From the IMG/VR virus record IMGVR_UViG_3300009509_000031, positions 1 to 64,000 of that record: 64,000 bases of DNA. The stretch is one strand, 5' to 3'. Below are positions 2,830 to 62,697 of this stretch, one piece after another. The translations under genes and the position numbers were made by a program. The first letter of the stretch is position 1; every line of letters starts with the position of its first letter. Origin of the DNA: a virus. Below the pieces are notes generated by a model that saw nothing but the letters and a program-made list of their open reading frames with translations, was not told the DNA's origin and ran no database searches.

Positions 2830-4311
2830 CTAACCTCCATAAATACTTTCACCAAGGAACGGGAACCAATTACGCGATCCGTTGCTACGCATCAAGAACC
2901 CTGCATATGGCGTTCTGTAGTAATCAGAACCTATCTTTAACGTTGCCATTGGCCTAGTATTGATATTCGTTAACCAGGCATTTCTAACTGTTCCCCTGTG
3001 TTCAAAATATCCCGCTGTTCGTGACTCTAAAACAAACTTAGTTCTATATTGTTTTTTAGACCACAAGCTATTTTTACGTCTGCATAGCTGCATAAGATTA
3101 TATGAAGTGTCTGTGAACGTGGCTGGAATTGATAGAACGTAAACCAACGTTGTTACATCATCGTATCCCAACCCTCGTGTTGCATTATAAACTGTTCCCC
3201 ACGGACTCGCCTGTGATGGGACATATCCAACCATTCTCGGATCATTAACTTCGTTGTCTCCGGCTAAGCACATAACTGGTCTAGGATCTTTGTCTGGATA
3301 AAACGAATCAAATTCTTCAACTAGATATACATTCCATTCTTCATTGTCGTAACTATCAATGCGCTTTCTTGACCTAACCCACGAATGAATATGCTGTTCA
3401 CTAGCTTCAGCGTATATAACGCATTCAGTCTGATCAGCTTCATTTTCAGCATTCTTGGCTGCAGTATACCTATTATCGTTCCAGCTATGCGATCCGGCGT
3501 TCCAGGATGCAAACGGGGATACACTGATCTTTGGATACATAGAATAGGTAGTAGTTTCTACTTCAATATACAAATGGTAGACGTAACTAATCTGCCAAGC
3601 GAAACTTGACGTTTCATTAACACCTGATGCGTTAGTGTAAGTGATCTGCGTTGCTGATACACGAGAAACAATCGTAAACGTTCCGTTGTTTCCCGGATTG
3701 GTTGCGCCGCTAATAGTTATGCTTTTTCCAACATCGCTTGTCTGAAATGTTGCAGTGGCATCTGTTAGTGTAGCAACGGAGCCGGCCATTGATATTGAAT
3801 CACCAGTTCCGTTCCCTGTTGTAGTTCCTGCACCTGTAACACCTATTCCGGCAACAACTAACTTATCGCCAGTATTTGGTGTATAGGTTGTTGACACATC
3901 CCACAACTTCCAACTAGATGATTCTGAAGATGGTAGTCCGTTGCTATGTGGTCCCATCCGTTTATCAATCTTCACCGTATAATCAGATCCCGCACTACCA
4001 ACATAATCCAGAATTCTGTAAACACCATCCCGTTCCCCGGTAGTAAAACCAGTTAGCGTTAGGTACTTATTAATGTCACTTGTTGAAAACACATAACTAG
4101 GGGATGTGATCACAAGCGTTTCAGCATCACTAACAACAGCGGTTCCAGCACCACCAGAACCTATATAGTTGTTCCATTTTGATCCGATTACATCAACAGC
4201 GGACCAACCAACAACATTTACAAGAAACTCGTATAACCATCTACAATAAGCTGTACCGGCACGATCTACCGTAGCTGTATCAAGTGCCAATCCGTTTTGA
4301 TATCTAGCCAT
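2830..4311 (-). CDS. Tail fibre / receptor-binding-like protein (type A')
   Basis: 493-residue paralogue of the gene at 126-1610. The first two thirds are nearly collinear, with shared stretches such as GSGGAGTAVVSDAETLVITS and DVGKSIT.SGATNPGNNG. Differences concentrate near the N-terminus (residues 10-25) and in the last 130 residues. The conserved core with a divergent distal part fits duplicated receptor-binding proteins. It stops 3 nt before the type B gene starts and begins 11 nt after the end of a short gene. Confidence 0.65.
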   Translation of the reverse strand: MARYQNGLALDTATVDRAGTAYCRWLYEFLVNVVGWSAVDVIGSKWNNYIGSGGAGTAVVSDAETLVITSPSYVFSTSDINKYLTLTGFTTGERDGVYRILDYVGSAGSDYTVKIDKRMGPHSNGLPSSESSSWKLWDVSTTYTPNTGDKLVVAGIGVTGAGTTTGNGTGDSISMAGSVATLTDATATFQTSDVGKSITISGATNPGNNGTFTIVSRVSATQITYTNASGVNETSSFAWQISYVYHLYIEVETTTYSMYPKISVSPFASWNAGSHSWNDNRYTAAKNAENEADQTECVIYAEASEQHIHSWVRSRKRIDSYDNEEWNVYLVEEFDSFYPDKDPRPVMCLAGDNEVNDPRMVGYVPSQASPWGTVYNATRGLGYDDVTTLVYVLSIPATFTDTSYNLMQLCRRKNSLWSKKQYRTKFVLESRTAGYFEHRGTVRNAWLTNINTRPMATLKIGSDYYRTPYAGFLMRSNGSRNWFPFLGESIYGG

Positions 4312-56442: not shown

Positions 56443-56903
56443 CCCCTGGATCCCATCATCTTGTGAACGGTGGTTGTTGCATCCAATATGCCACGATAAA
56501 ACCCATTCCTGTTATTGCGCCGAGTAACAACACGGTATCGATAACCCAAAGGGCATTGTTTGGATACCTGTTTTTCTGTCTTAGCATTCTCGCAAAAACC
56601 GTAAGGCCCGCGATCAAGTACAACACAAATGCCGAGATCATACTTATTTGACCTAATCCTAACGACGGTACCAAAGGGCAATGTTCTATGAGCACATACG
56701 AGATCAAAAACTGTTGGTTTTGTTCGCCACTTACCAGCATATCTAGCATAAGGAACCGTCTTTGATCGCTTCCATGGCCGGTACCCCGATACAATCCCGG
56801 TTTCAATACGTGATCCTTCAACAGTTTTCCAATCAAACGATAAGTGGGATATCGGAATCACCGGTGTTAGAAATAGTAAGCTTAGTTTTAGGATAAACGT
56901 CAT
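56361..56903 (-). CDS. RlpA-like double-psi beta-barrel protein, exported
   Basis: 180 residues from ATG 56903 (a longer frame upstream is in the SpeD gene). A signal peptide (FILKLSLLFLTPVIPISHLS) precedes the DPBB: CAHRTLPFGTVVRIRSN, then VVLDRGPYG, and GILDATTTVHKMMG. The Asp in DRGPYG is the usual catalytic-site residue of lytic DPBB enzymes. RlpA-type proteins cut peptidoglycan, so it may help in lysis or entry. It overlaps the SpeD gene by 71 nt and lies beside the endolysin. Confidence 0.62.
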   Translation of the reverse strand: MTFILKLSLLFLTPVIPISHLSFDWKTVEGSRIETGIVSGYRPWKRSKTVPYARYAGKWRTKPTVFDLVCAHRTLPFGTVVRIRSNKYDLGICVVLDRGPYGFCENAKTEKQVSKQCPLGYRYRVVTRRNNRNGFYRGILDATTTVHKMMGSRGWIHATIERLNVDTMLQVLRLNVENNG

Positions 56904-57273
56904 AATGAACAACCGTTTCAACACACAAATCTGCAATTGTATGTATGTAAAGACTTGCCGTAGAAAACGGCTTACAAGAAACAACATCCAACATAAATCG
57001 ACGCCTATTAGGCCAGCCATGCAAGGCAATATGGCTTGTTGAAATTAGTGCTAATACACTAATACCGCCTTCATCTTCAAACGCTGTTCTGTTCAACTTT
57101 GACAGATCCTCTTTTACGTTACTAACAATCAAATTAAGGATAGTCATACCTGATAGGCTAGCAATCCGATCCACGATAGAACTAAGGCGGCTAGAACTAG
57201 CCAAAACCCCCTTTTCTTCTCTTTTTACAATTCCATCAAGTTCAAAACGATAACGGATCGGATCGTTGTTCAT
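56833..57273 (-). CDS. AdoMet decarboxylase homologue (SpeD family)
   Basis: 146 residues. The catalytic region matches prokaryotic SpeD: ISTSHIALHGWP then LDVVSC. The pyruvoyl serine (S80), the histidine (H85) and the cysteine (C100) keep the exact spacing of Ser63, His68 and Cys83 of the Thermotoga enzyme. SpeD self-cleaves before the serine to form a pyruvoyl group; here Thr replaces the usual Glu at the cleavage site. It would make polyamine precursors, but some phage homologues use ornithine or arginine. No spermidine synthase gene is seen. Confidence 0.72.
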   Translation of the reverse strand: MNNDPIRYRFELDGIVKREEKGVLASSSRLSSIVDRIASLSGMTILNLIVSNVKEDLSKLNRTAFEDEGGISVLALISTSHIALHGWPNRRRFMLDVVSCKPFSTASLYIHTIADLCVETVVHYDVYPKTKLTISNTGDSDIPLIV

Positions 57274-57295
57274 AATTTAACCTCTTTTCGCTAAG

Positions 57296-58225
57296 CTAAG
57301 TTGGAACCAAAGTATCCCCTGTTGTGTTGCTTTCTGGCATAGGATAATCCCGCAACAGTACCAATTCCGTAAACGGATCCGTAATGCCGGTAACATACAA
57401 CTTCTTTTCTTGTTGAAACTTAATTAACGCTCGTTTGCTTTCGTAACCAAATACACCATCTGCACCATACTTAGGCAGACAGTCAGGCTTCCACCTAAGC
57501 AAAGCCTGTTGCCAATCAAGATCTGTTTTCAAATCTTGTTTAGCTGATTCCCGCCAAGAATCAATCCGAGTCATTAAAACATATCCGGGGCAACCTGCTT
57601 TACCAAAATGAGCATGATAAAAGTTACCCTCTGCACCGTAGTTAAACAACTCTGCTAACCACTGGCAGACCTTTGTGTGACCTTCAAGCTGTTTTACAGT
57701 TGGTCCTGTAGCGTAACCTTTATAACCAGGTGCACTAAAGCCGCCCATTACTAACACGGCTACTAGGTGCAAGTTTTCATCACCGTCTGCTAAACCACCA
57801 TAGGCTTGTGCGTATGTTCGATCCAGAATGTTACCTGTAAGCAAAACAATCCCGTCTTTTGGAATACAGATCGGATATACCATTGTTGGCAACGGTTTAC
57901 CTGGTGTGATGTGATTATTCACACCTGTATGATAATTTGCGGTTGCAACCGGATCGTTATCGTTGCGTGATGCGTTATGATGCGTGCACTGGCCTAGAAC
58001 TTCTGAAATTAGTCGTTTAGGCCATCTAAACCTATCCACCTTATATCTACTGTTAGCGGTAGGTATATCAGACCTAACATCCTTCATCCATCCTTCACTA
58101 ACAGCGATCGTTATCGCGTTTTCAACAATATTCAAATCCTTGGTATACTGTTTTGCCCTATCTAACATTGCTTGATCCACCAGTCTTTCAAAATCCTTCC
58201 ATGCAGTATTTACATACCTAGCCAT
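57296..58225 (-). CDS. Endolysin: amidase plus peptidoglycan-binding domain
   Basis: 309 residues. The zinc/active-site pattern of N-acetylmuramoyl-L-alanine amidase (amidase_2 type) is visible: THHNASRN (H82/H83) and YHAHFGKAGCPG (H204 or H206, C212). Residues about 235-290 form a peptidoglycan-binding domain (LPKYGADGVFGYESKRALIK, FQQEKKL). No signal peptide, so a holin is needed for release. It lies in a lysis-like cluster with the RlpA-like gene. Confidence 0.82.
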   Translation of the reverse strand: MARYVNTAWKDFERLVDQAMLDRAKQYTKDLNIVENAITIAVSEGWMKDVRSDIPTANSRYKVDRFRWPKRLISEVLGQCTHHNASRNDNDPVATANYHTGVNNHITPGKPLPTMVYPICIPKDGIVLLTGNILDRTYAQAYGGLADGDENLHLVAVLVMGGFSAPGYKGYATGPTVKQLEGHTKVCQWLAELFNYGAEGNFYHAHFGKAGCPGYVLMTRIDSWRESAKQDLKTDLDWQQALLRWKPDCLPKYGADGVFGYESKRALIKFQQEKKLYVTGITDPFTELVLLRDYPMPESNTTGDTLVPT

Positions 58226-59497: not shown

Positions 59498-60877
59498 CTA
59501 TAGGGCTTTCAATCGCAAGCTTGCTTTTTTCACAAACTTCTTTGACTGTTCAATGCCAATGCTTCGCCTACCTAGCCGCTTACAAGCAACCTGTGTTGTT
59601 CCAACACCCATAAACGGATCAACCACTAGATCCTTTTTCTGGCTATGTCGCTTCAACAACCTTTCAACCAACCACAACGGTTTCTGTGTTGGGTGATCCA
59701 GACGTTCGTTACCTTGACAGATCGGACCTTCAAAGCAGTTATGAACGTATCTAGCACCCTTATTCTTAAACGGCTTAAAATACGGTTTACCCTTCGTTGC
59801 AAACACGATAGCTTCACAACTTGGAAGGTAAACACCATCCCTATTCACAACACCCGGATTCGTTTTATGCCAAATCATAAAACCCTTATAGGTTAGCTTT
59901 GCTGCTTCAATCATTGCTTCATACACGCCGATCGCTTCACCAGGGCAGAATATTTGCAAAGAACTGTTTTTAGCCATCAATGGTGCCCAATCCAAAACCC
60001 ACGAAGCATCAAGGTTATCCCAGTCAAACTCCCCACTATTAACATCTTGCCTTTCGCCGGCGTACCTAATCGTTGAATGTTCCCTATCATAAGGTGGGTC
60101 TGTAAACAGTAGATCAATCTTCCCAGTACAGTGCTCTTTAATCATATTAAAGTGCTCTTGCCACGTACCGTGAAGGATGCTGATTGTCTTTTGAAGTGCC
60201 TTCCCTGCTTTCTTTGCATCCGCTTTACGCTGTTCGTGTTTTTCTTTAGCCTCTTGCTTTAGTTTTTCTTCTTTCTCTTTCCTGCGGATCTCAGATAGCG
60301 CCTTCCTTGCTGCAACATTACGTTCCCTAGTTGTGGCCGCTTCCTGTTCAATCTTACGTTTCTTATTTTCTGGTAGTTCTGCTATCTTCAACAAGTCCCT
60401 AACACTTTGTTCGCTGACACTAAGCACCTTTGCCGCTTCAGCTGTGAACCTTTCAACACTAGCATCAGCTTTTGGCCTACCCCTACCCGCACCACCAACT
60501 TTTGTTTCAGGATGGGCAGCTTCATACTTTTCCCGGTAACGTTTCAACCCATCAGCAACTTCAAGCTTATCAAACCCCTTTCGTTTAATGTTCTCTGCAA
60601 GTTGCATTGTTAGGTTATGCAACTCATCCTTTGGTTTGATAACAACTGCCTTGACTGGAATACCAAGTTGCTTACAAGCCTTTGTTCTTCTAAGGCCAGC
60701 AATAATCACATAAGCACCTTTTTGCTTTTTACTTGGCTTAACAACAATCGGCTGTAGCTGCCCAATTGTTTTAATACTATCTGCGAGTTCTGCAATATCA
60801 CCGTAATCTTGGCGTGCACGCCAGCCTTTTTTGATATCTTTCGGGTTCAGGTTCAATACGATCGTCTTTTCACTCAT
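59498..60877 (-). CDS. ParB-like domain fused to DNA methyltransferase
   Basis: 459 residues from ATG 60877 (GAGAGG upstream). N-terminal ParB-like domain with the signature GLRRTKA (residues 61-67) and a HTH-like segment (AAKVLSVSEQSVRDLLKIAE). A charged linker leads to a methyltransferase with DPPY (260-263) before DPFMGVGTT (420-428). Motif order IV-TRD-I is the beta class, so it methylates adenine or cytosine N4; the target site is not readable. Probably protects phage DNA or affects partition of the genome. Confidence 0.8.
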   Translation of the reverse strand: MSEKTIVLNLNPKDIKKGWRARQDYGDIAELADSIKTIGQLQPIVVKPSKKQKGAYVIIAGLRRTKACKQLGIPVKAVVIKPKDELHNLTMQLAENIKRKGFDKLEVADGLKRYREKYEAAHPETKVGGAGRGRPKADASVERFTAEAAKVLSVSEQSVRDLLKIAELPENKKRKIEQEAATTRERNVAARKALSEIRRKEKEEKLKQEAKEKHEQRKADAKKAGKALQKTISILHGTWQEHFNMIKEHCTGKIDLLFTDPPYDREHSTIRYAGERQDVNSGEFDWDNLDASWVLDWAPLMAKNSSLQIFCPGEAIGVYEAMIEAAKLTYKGFMIWHKTNPGVVNRDGVYLPSCEAIVFATKGKPYFKPFKNKGARYVHNCFEGPICQGNERLDHPTQKPLWLVERLLKRHSQKKDLVVDPFMGVGTTQVACKRLGRRSIGIEQSKKFVKKASLRLKAL

Positions 60878-60891
60878 AACACCCTCTCTTG

Positions 60892-62697
60892 TTACATCCA
60901 TCTTACAGTTGAACAACCGTTTACTTTCTCAACTAACAACATCTCATCAACAGCCATTAAAACATCTTCGTGGTGTGACACTACCAACTGTTGCTTTAAG
61001 CCAAACTCAGATCCTAGTTTATCGATAACAAGTCCAATAAGTTTTTGCCGGTTATTAGCATCAAGCATCGCAAACACTTCATCTAGCATAATGCTCTGAA
61101 TACTGATCCCCAACATTGACGCCACAAAAAACGCACCGGCTAACCTAACAGCAAAGCTCTGCAACACTTGGCCGCCACCAGATTCCAAAGCAAACGGCCG
61201 TTCCTGTGTTCCATCGTATACAGTAACCATCGGTTCATTTTTCTGCTTTCGTGGTCTAGCAGATCCACAGGAAGAACACAGATCCGTTGACGTAGCTTTT
61301 AACCATATTTCAGAACCACATACCGGACATACTTTTTCAAAGCTTGCAAGTTCTCTATATGCCGCAAACCTGATCCGTTTTGGATAGTCAAGCCGGCTCA
61401 ATATCCAGTTACACCGCGTTTCAACCTTTTCAAGTTCTGATTCCAAAATCTGCGAAGGAATACCTTTGTTGCTACACATCCAATACAGAAACCGCGTTTT
61501 CTTCATTCGGCTTTCAAGCTGCTTTATTTTTTTATTACAGGTTCGGACGGCTTCCTTTGCTTTAGAGATTTGATCAAGCTCTGTTTCAGCTCTTGTTACA
61601 ATCGCTCTAAGATGTTGCTCTTCACCTGCAAGCTGAGAAATTGATCGCCGCACACCAGCAATCTTTTCTTTCAATGTGTTTCGCTTGTCAGTATTTGCCG
61701 GCTGCTTCTTTGTTTGCTTGGCTGCCTTTCTTAGCTCTTGTTGCTTCTTAACGTTAGCCTTTATCTCTTCCTTCAACCCGGTTACTGTAACAACAAACGC
61801 TTTCCGTTTCTTTTCATACGATGCAGCTAACTGTTTACAGGATACAGACAACAAAGGACACATCCCCTTTTTGATCTGTTCCAGTTCTTGCAAAGCTTTT
61901 AACAACTTTTTGTTAAGCCGATCATGTTCATCCTTTAGATCATCAATCCGATCGTTAACATCCTCAGTATGCTTTTCACCTGCTTTTATAACCTGCAACT
62001 GGCCGGATAATTCAAGCTCTGCTTCCCTCGCTTGCTCCAACTGATCAGATACAGCCATAAGTTTCTTTTTTGCTGCTAACAGTCGTTTTGAAATAACCGG
62101 CTTGTCTTTCAACATTTCCGCTTGCACGGCTTTTGTAGCCTGTACTGTTTCACGTTGTGATAATAGTTTTGACGTATCAGCTCGAAACTGATCCGCAAGT
62201 GCTTGCCACATAGCCAATGGTTGAGTCCATCGCCTGAAATACGCTGATTTATCCCCTAACATGAATTGACTGATATCACCCTGCACAAAGTAAGACAGCG
62301 CAATAAAATCATCATACGTCAATCGGATTGCTTCATTGATCAGTGCTTGGCCATCAGCAAGCTTAACCGGCTTTCCATCAAGAGAAATAAAGCCGGTGTT
62401 GTCTACTGTCCTACCGCGTTGAATTGTAATCTGGCCGGCACCTGGTACAGTCAACCCAACCTCCACAACCATATCTTTATCGGCACCATCCGTGATCAGC
62501 TGCACATCACGAACCTTGTGCACGTCTTGCTTTAGTGGAACCTTTCCGTATAAGGCATAACAAATTGCCCTTAACAGTGTGCTCTTACCTGATTCGTTAG
62601 CGCCAACAATCCCGACAACTTTTTTTCCTGATAGGTCAAGTGATACCTCTTTTTTGTAGGCACCAAAATTTCTAAGCATCAAACTATCAACGATCAT
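60892..62697 (-). CDS. SbcC/Rad50-like ATPase (gp46-like)
   Basis: 601 residues, shorter than bacterial SbcC (about 1,050). Walker A at 32-40 (GANESGKST), long coiled coils, a central CPLLSVSC that may stand in for the zinc hook, a zinc ribbon (CPVCG...CSSCG), the signature ESGGGQ, and Walker B IMLDEVFAMLD. It is the ATPase partner of the nuclease encoded upstream. It overlaps that gene by 11 nt. Confidence 0.85.
   Translation of the reverse strand: MIVDSLMLRNFGAYKKEVSLDLSGKKVVGIVGANESGKSTLLRAICYALYGKVPLKQDVHKVRDVQLITDGADKDMVVEVGLTVPGAGQITIQRGRTVDNTGFISLDGKPVKLADGQALINEAIRLTYDDFIALSYFVQGDISQFMLGDKSAYFRRWTQPLAMWQALADQFRADTSKLLSQRETVQATKAVQAEMLKDKPVISKRLLAAKKKLMAVSDQLEQAREAELELSGQLQVIKAGEKHTEDVNDRIDDLKDEHDRLNKKLLKALQELEQIKKGMCPLLSVSCKQLAASYEKKRKAFVVTVTGLKEEIKANVKKQQELRKAAKQTKKQPANTDKRNTLKEKIAGVRRSISQLAGEEQHLRAIVTRAETELDQISKAKEAVRTCNKKIKQLESRMKKTRFLYWMCSNKGIPSQILESELEKVETRCNWILSRLDYPKRIRFAAYRELASFEKVCPVCGSEIWLKATSTDLCSSCGSARPRKQKNEPMVTVYDGTQERPFALESGGGQVLQSFAVRLAGAFFVASMLGISIQSIMLDEVFAMLDANNRQKLIGLVIDKLGSEFGLKQQLVVSHHEDVLMAVDEMLLVEKVNGCSTVRWM

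Follow-up and report, generated by a model that had tools for sequence, protein, structure and literature searches.

A phage SpeD homologue of a distinct clade as a candidate pyruvoyl arginine decarboxylase

The 64-kb stretch of virus DNA analysed here (the window) carries a gene for a SpeD homologue that we tentatively read, at slightly under an even chance, as a pyruvoyl arginine decarboxylase (ADC) of the SpeDA type. The proenzyme, of SpeD fold, would cleave itself between Thr79 and Ser80, with the pyruvoyl group arising from Ser80 and with roles for His85 and Cys100 in both processing and catalysis. The clade of rare SpeDs from phages and bacterial bins to which it belongs would have left AdoMet and would most likely decarboxylate L-arginine to agmatine. 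By raising agmatine, the phage may provide the host agmatinase with a source of putrescine for the polyamine supply during infection.

Encoded on the minus strand, the ORF runs from an ATG at 57273 to 56833, and a good ribosome-binding site precedes its start (Table 1). As judged by profile comparison, its similarity to the AdoMet_dc superfamily lies far beyond chance (PF02675, 49.1 bits, E 8.1e-13, curated cut-off 25), and a PHROGs search also assigns the ORF as a SpeD homologue. The AlphaFold model of the protein (pLDDT 86.6, pTM 0.80, from a 32-sequence alignment) has T. maritima AdoMet decarboxylase (AdoMetDC; 1vr7) as its top PDB match (E 7.4e-7, probability 1.00). A reading of the sequence alone had already called this gene a SpeD homologue, and Pfam, PHROGs and the fold match all agree with it. 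The same reading had noted that Ser80, His85 and Cys100 keep the 5- and 15-residue spacing of T. maritima residues 63, 68 and 83, and that Thr, not Glu, precedes the serine; the translation and the alignment confirm both. Ser72 occupies the position of T. maritima Ser55, where Ser/Thr is kept, and the Trp and Pro of the HTWPE motif are retained as Trp87 and Pro88. Neither a tblastn search of 50,697 phage records with the window SpeD protein nor a viral scan with the same protein as a single sequence gave a match.

Table 1. Coordinates of the window SpeD gene, its key codons and neighbouring features.
Feature	Position in window	Strand	Basis or remark
Class 1b SpeD/AdoMet decarboxylase homologue, pyruvoyl-type proenzyme, 146 aa	56833..57273	-	ORF, Pfam, AlphaFold, PDB match
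Ribosome-binding site AAAAGAGGT, 5' of ATG	57274..57288	-	Read from sequence (AAAAGAGGTTAAATT-ATG)
Thr79 codon, precedes processing serine	57037..57039	-	Translation, alignment
Ser80 codon, predicted site of self-cleavage and pyruvoyl formation, = T. maritima Ser63	57034..57036	-	Alignment
His85 codon, = T. maritima His68	57019..57021	-	Alignment
Cys100 codon, = T. maritima Cys83	56974..56976	-	Alignment
Asn89-Arg90 codons	57004..57009	-	Asn89 in place of HTWPE Glu (clade alignment)
Endolysin-like protein, C-terminal peptidoglycan-binding domain	57296..58225	-	PHROG E 2.5e-8; PG_binding_1
126-aa ORF, TTG start overlaps SpeD stop (TTGA)	56456..56836	-	No family match
ParB_N + N6/N4 DNA methyltransferase, ordinary motif I (DPFMGVGTT)	59498..60916	-	Domain search, motif reading

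The whole virus record is a contig of 93,821 bp, and its bases 1-144 are identical to bases 93678-93821 (window:1-144 = L003:13678-13821), a terminal repeat suggesting that the record is complete. As the sequence-only reading had stated for the window, no spermidine synthase gene (PF01564) was found in the 64 kb, nor was one found in the full record. The record also yielded no second SpeD and no agmatinase, AR-fold ornithine/arginine decarboxylase or deoxyhypusine synthase-like gene. No near DNA relative was found in the phage collection, which may omit records very near the window. The claim that the gene lies near lysis genes holds for its immediate upstream neighbour, which is endolysin-like; the other neighbours were not recognised as lysis genes. 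Further upstream, a KH-domain protein, a RuvC-like resolvase and a ParB-methyltransferase are encoded, and a synteny test found no relatives of the endolysin and the ParB-methyltransferase in viral contigs. Another ORF (window:56361-56915) overlaps the 3' end of the SpeD gene and the 126-aa ORF in other frames; its product reads like an RlpA-type secreted protein, with no Pfam match. Elsewhere, at L002, genes for a phage VWA-domain protein and a MoxR-type AAA ATPase lie close together (L002:9640-11070 and L002:12360-13604), and a uracil-DNA glycosylase-like N-terminal domain is fused to a family A DNA polymerase (L002:4798-7521).

Scanning viral contigs and bacterial genomes led to seven window-type relatives, found on phage contigs (L012, L013, L014 and L348b) and in bacterial bins (L172, L173 and L174); L347 is a near copy of L014. 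One SpeD search used an approximate T. maritima-like probe, for finding phage records only. No clade members beyond those known were found among 284 genomes drawn from the phylum of bin G001 or among 29 genomes of the class of bin G002. Together with the window protein, the seven relatives form one clade with a support of 99/97 (99/92 in the tree without L348b). It sits in a group (96/94) with the pelagiphage ADC, the ornithine decarboxylase (ODC)-type SpeDs and some SpeDs of unassigned activity, a placement that argues for the ADC reading. The phylogeny proposed as a check gave a strong clade beside ADC- and ODC-type SpeDs, but a weak deeper placement: the sister relation to ADC+ODC has a support of 97/78 without L348b and of 82/58 with it, and phiN3, a proven AdoMetDC, also falls in this group, both of which count against ADC. 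The trees took in the proven ADC/ODC sequences of PMC10407285 only in part. By the AU test, grouping with the Bacillaceae SpeD-SpeE fusions was rejected (p 0.019) and grouping with ODC+phiN3 was disfavoured, though not rejected (p 0.073). Placing the window clade together with the pelagiphage ADC group was not rejected (p 0.157); the free tree keeps the two apart.

Profile scores and residue changes also set the clade off from canonical enzymes. Against the AdoMetDC equivalog TIGR03330 (NCBIfam, cut-off 75.65 bits), the window protein scored 35.2 bits and the other clade members scored (all except L013) 30-60.7 bits, all below the cut-off. These values resemble those of the ADC of pelagiphage HTVC201P (38 bits) and of an ODC-type SpeD (39.5 bits), unlike those of the canonical SpeD of L348 (128.6 bits) or of L181, a single-domain Bacillaceae SpeD of the TSH type (119 bits, above the cut-off), and would thus favour a changed substrate. 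The Glu of HTWPE, which holds the ribose in AdoMetDC structures, is replaced by Asn, Tyr, Gln or Leu in all eight aligned members, and this clade-wide loss likewise points towards ADC. The adjoining residue is Arg in 7/8 members (Arg90 in the window) and Gln in L348b. A DEGG/DDGG motif is found instead of PQG in all eight, and the catalytic Ser, His and Cys are kept throughout.

Two clues used by the sequence-only reading proved to carry little weight. Thr79 had been taken as a hint of a new substrate. The same Thr precedes the serine in the HTVC201P homologue (AXH71538, L206), a demonstrated arginine decarboxylase (PMC9992855), in the ODC-type SpeDs (L257-L261), and in the Bacillaceae SpeD-SpeE fusions, which are presumably true AdoMetDCs; L181 shares it. 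Thr-Ser therefore fits processing and alone says nothing about the substrate, and we rejected it as a mark of altered specificity. The missing SpeE is similarly uninformative on its own, because phages in which an AdoMetDC has been proven mostly depend on the SpeE of the host (PMC9992855). The proposal built on these clues, an ornithine or arginine decarboxylase or some other altered activity, survives in part: its reasoning was weak and ODC is disfavoured, but ADC is plausible on the grounds of the clade, the TIGR03330 scores, the lost Glu and the gene contexts of two relatives. The results speak neither for nor against an entirely new activity.

Two SpeDs per genome, or a SpeD without SpeE, has been used as a criterion for finding neofunctionalised enzymes (PMC10407285). 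The window record has its SpeD without PF01564, a weak sign in a phage, where the SpeE of the host may serve, and extra SpeD copies were found in G001 and L348. In L348, a 323-kb jumbo phage contig, the window-type SpeD lies directly behind the canonical SpeD with an ATGA overlap (L348:7456-8342). No agmatinase or SpeE was found in this record by tblastn with three agmatinases and one SpeD-SpeE protein, nor any PF01564 match. Myxococcota bin G001 has a window-type SpeD plus a SpeD-SpeE fusion on a separate contig. Both cases would support ADC, the tandem as a second paralogue of the anomalous kind defined in PMC10407285.

In bin G003 (L174), an agmatinase gene lies 237 bp from the window-type SpeD in convergent orientation (SpeD end 3015, agmatinase match 3253-4215), and an agmatinase is present in 3/3 bins (G001-G003). 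PvlArgDC is absent from all three. By reading, the AR-fold genes of G002 and G003 look like diaminopimelate decarboxylase, and G001 is without any; an AAT-fold decarboxylase is found only in G003, leaving G001 and G002 without the other ADC/ODC folds searched. This distribution, together with the agmatinase neighbour, is consistent with ADC, although the bins may be incomplete, making gene absences weak, and the neighbour is a single, convergent case in a bin that also has the AAT-fold decarboxylase. Weak PF01564 matches in G002 and G003 were read as synthase-like proteins other than SpeE. No polyamine neighbours were recognised around the nearest phage relative, L012, which speaks against ADC. 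In L014, the window-type SpeD overlaps the gene of an 865-aa protein that combines zinc-finger/HTH regions with a methyltransferase at its C terminus (SPPYYDLESY; L014:5314-8357).

A further point against ADC is Pro88: at the inferred position, the window retains the Pro of HTWPE, which is fully conserved in true AdoMetDCs and is said not to be a conserved residue in SpeDA (PMC10407285). Together with Trp87 and the catalytic residues, it fits a divergent but genuine AdoMetDC that would make decarboxylated AdoMet for the spermidine synthase of the host, a rather unlikely reading that nevertheless comes second. Of the phage SpeDs with proven activity, most are true AdoMetDCs using host SpeE, and phiN3 is one despite a divergent motif and its place in the ODC group (PMC9992855). 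However, the window protein scores under the TIGR03330 cut-off, the HTWPE Glu is lost clade-wide, and such an enzyme would be redundant beside the canonical SpeD in L348 and the SpeD-SpeE fusion in G001.

Less likely again is a pyruvoyl decarboxylase for another substrate, be it ornithine, lysine or a non-basic amino acid, as might be suggested by the Arg after the lost Glu in most members, the DEGG/DDGG motif and the separation of the clade from both known ADC and ODC groups. For ornithine, the AU test is unfavourable, as is the residue pattern. The SpeDC ornithine decarboxylases have Gln-Thr-Phe-Tyr as diagnostic residues, as far as the text of PMC10407285 gives them; L257-L261 are taken to carry this signature, and the positions were inferred from these sequences and that text. 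At the positions so inferred, only one of the four residues (Thr79) is present in the window, so ODC is disfavoured.

A regulatory or inactive, prozyme-like partner of an active SpeD is very unlikely. The tandem with a canonical SpeD in L348 would fit and resembles the AdoMetDC/prozyme heterodimer of trypanosomes; PDB 5tvm is among the structure matches of the window model. However, Ser, His and Cys are kept clade-wide, unlike in the prozyme, and the window record yielded no second SpeD. Most improbable is a donor supply for DNA modification, in which the product would feed the ParB-methyltransferase three genes upstream and give aminopropylated DNA: in other phages, a ParB-methyltransferase whose motif I is altered is followed directly by SpeD, and a methyltransferase gene overlaps the SpeD of L014, but the window methyltransferase is of another family and not adjacent to SpeD, and the window SpeD is of the wrong type.

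That phage module is an observation in its own right. In phages ZRG1 (L008:446-2291) and P2559S (L011:4667-6308), speD lies directly behind, and overlaps, a gene for a ParB-type N6/N4 methyltransferase, and the same module was found in L092, L093, L095-L100 and L104. SpeD is directly downstream in 9/80 viral loci with related methyltransferases. Among 34 aligned methyltransferases, a group of twelve is fully supported and 10/12 have SpeD; in the other 22, SpeD is found only at the distant L014, the rest having none within the flank (which is short in two). Motif I, the cofactor loop, reads FAGD[TS]xFG in the SpeD-linked group (3/12 deviate in part) and mostly FAGGSVRG elsewhere, with Gly changed to Asp and Arg/Lys to Phe. 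The loss of a positive and gain of a negative charge fits decarboxylated AdoMet instead of AdoMet, and suggests that the SpeD-linked enzymes may use it as donor for DNA aminopropylation, no description of which turned up in the literature searched. The SpeD of P2559S is a proven AdoMetDC (PMC9992855). The precedent is CmoA-CmoX, where carboxy-AdoMet produced by a phage serves a DNA methyltransferase homologue, often with ParB-domain genes nearby (PMC12783734). In L092, from a P2559S-like phage, speD lacks the stretch bearing the catalytic Ser and His (L092:3339-3599), while the methyltransferase query region is identical. The aminopropylation reading does not apply to the window: with an ordinary motif I, its ParB-methyltransferase is not supported as a SpeD partner.

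With ADC as the preferred reading, a wider claim, that the clade is a separate and unreported departure of SpeD from AdoMet, is possible but more doubtful. Such a lineage would stand apart from the ADC/ODC lineages, occur in phages and bacteria, have its own solution for substrate binding (HTWPE Glu lost, acidic DEGG gained) and be found in tandem with a true AdoMetDC in a jumbo phage. A SpeD-derived ADC is already a reported kind of switch, to which the window clade would add one lineage. Annotation routinely labels the SpeD homologues of phages and bacteria as AdoMet decarboxylases; if the substrate has changed, this would add another switch, with the triad kept, to an enzyme family that is small and cofactor-free, and phages would be providing a precursor of polyamines instead of spermidine. 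In the jumbo phage, the tandem pair makes a division of labour directly testable.

Compared with known SpeD types, the window protein shares the Thr-Ser processing site with the Bacillaceae SpeD-SpeE fusions with TSH (L186, L191, L200, L202), but these keep HTWPE and the window does not. With class 1b AdoMetDCs (T. maritima TM0655; phages S-PM2 and P2559S), it has in common the fold, the triad, the Trp-Pro of HTWPE and the size; its identity to TM0655 is 20% on the fold alignment, and the Glu of HTWPE is missing. Fold, Thr before Ser and loss of the HTWPE Glu are shared with SpeDC (L257-L261 type; PMC10407285), while Ala75, Gly86 and Met94 differ at the diagnostic positions inferred from the text of that source. 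No sequence signature positively marks SpeDA enzymes, which also counts against ADC. Relative to SpeDA (HTVC201P AXH71538; PMC9992855, PMC10407285), the window protein falls in a separate clade, keeps WP where SpeDA has WDE, lacks the two-residue insertion and has Asn-Arg at the Glu position; the two share the SpeD fold, the Ser/His/Cys triad, the Thr before Ser, a phage without SpeE and a score below the AdoMetDC equivalog cut-off.
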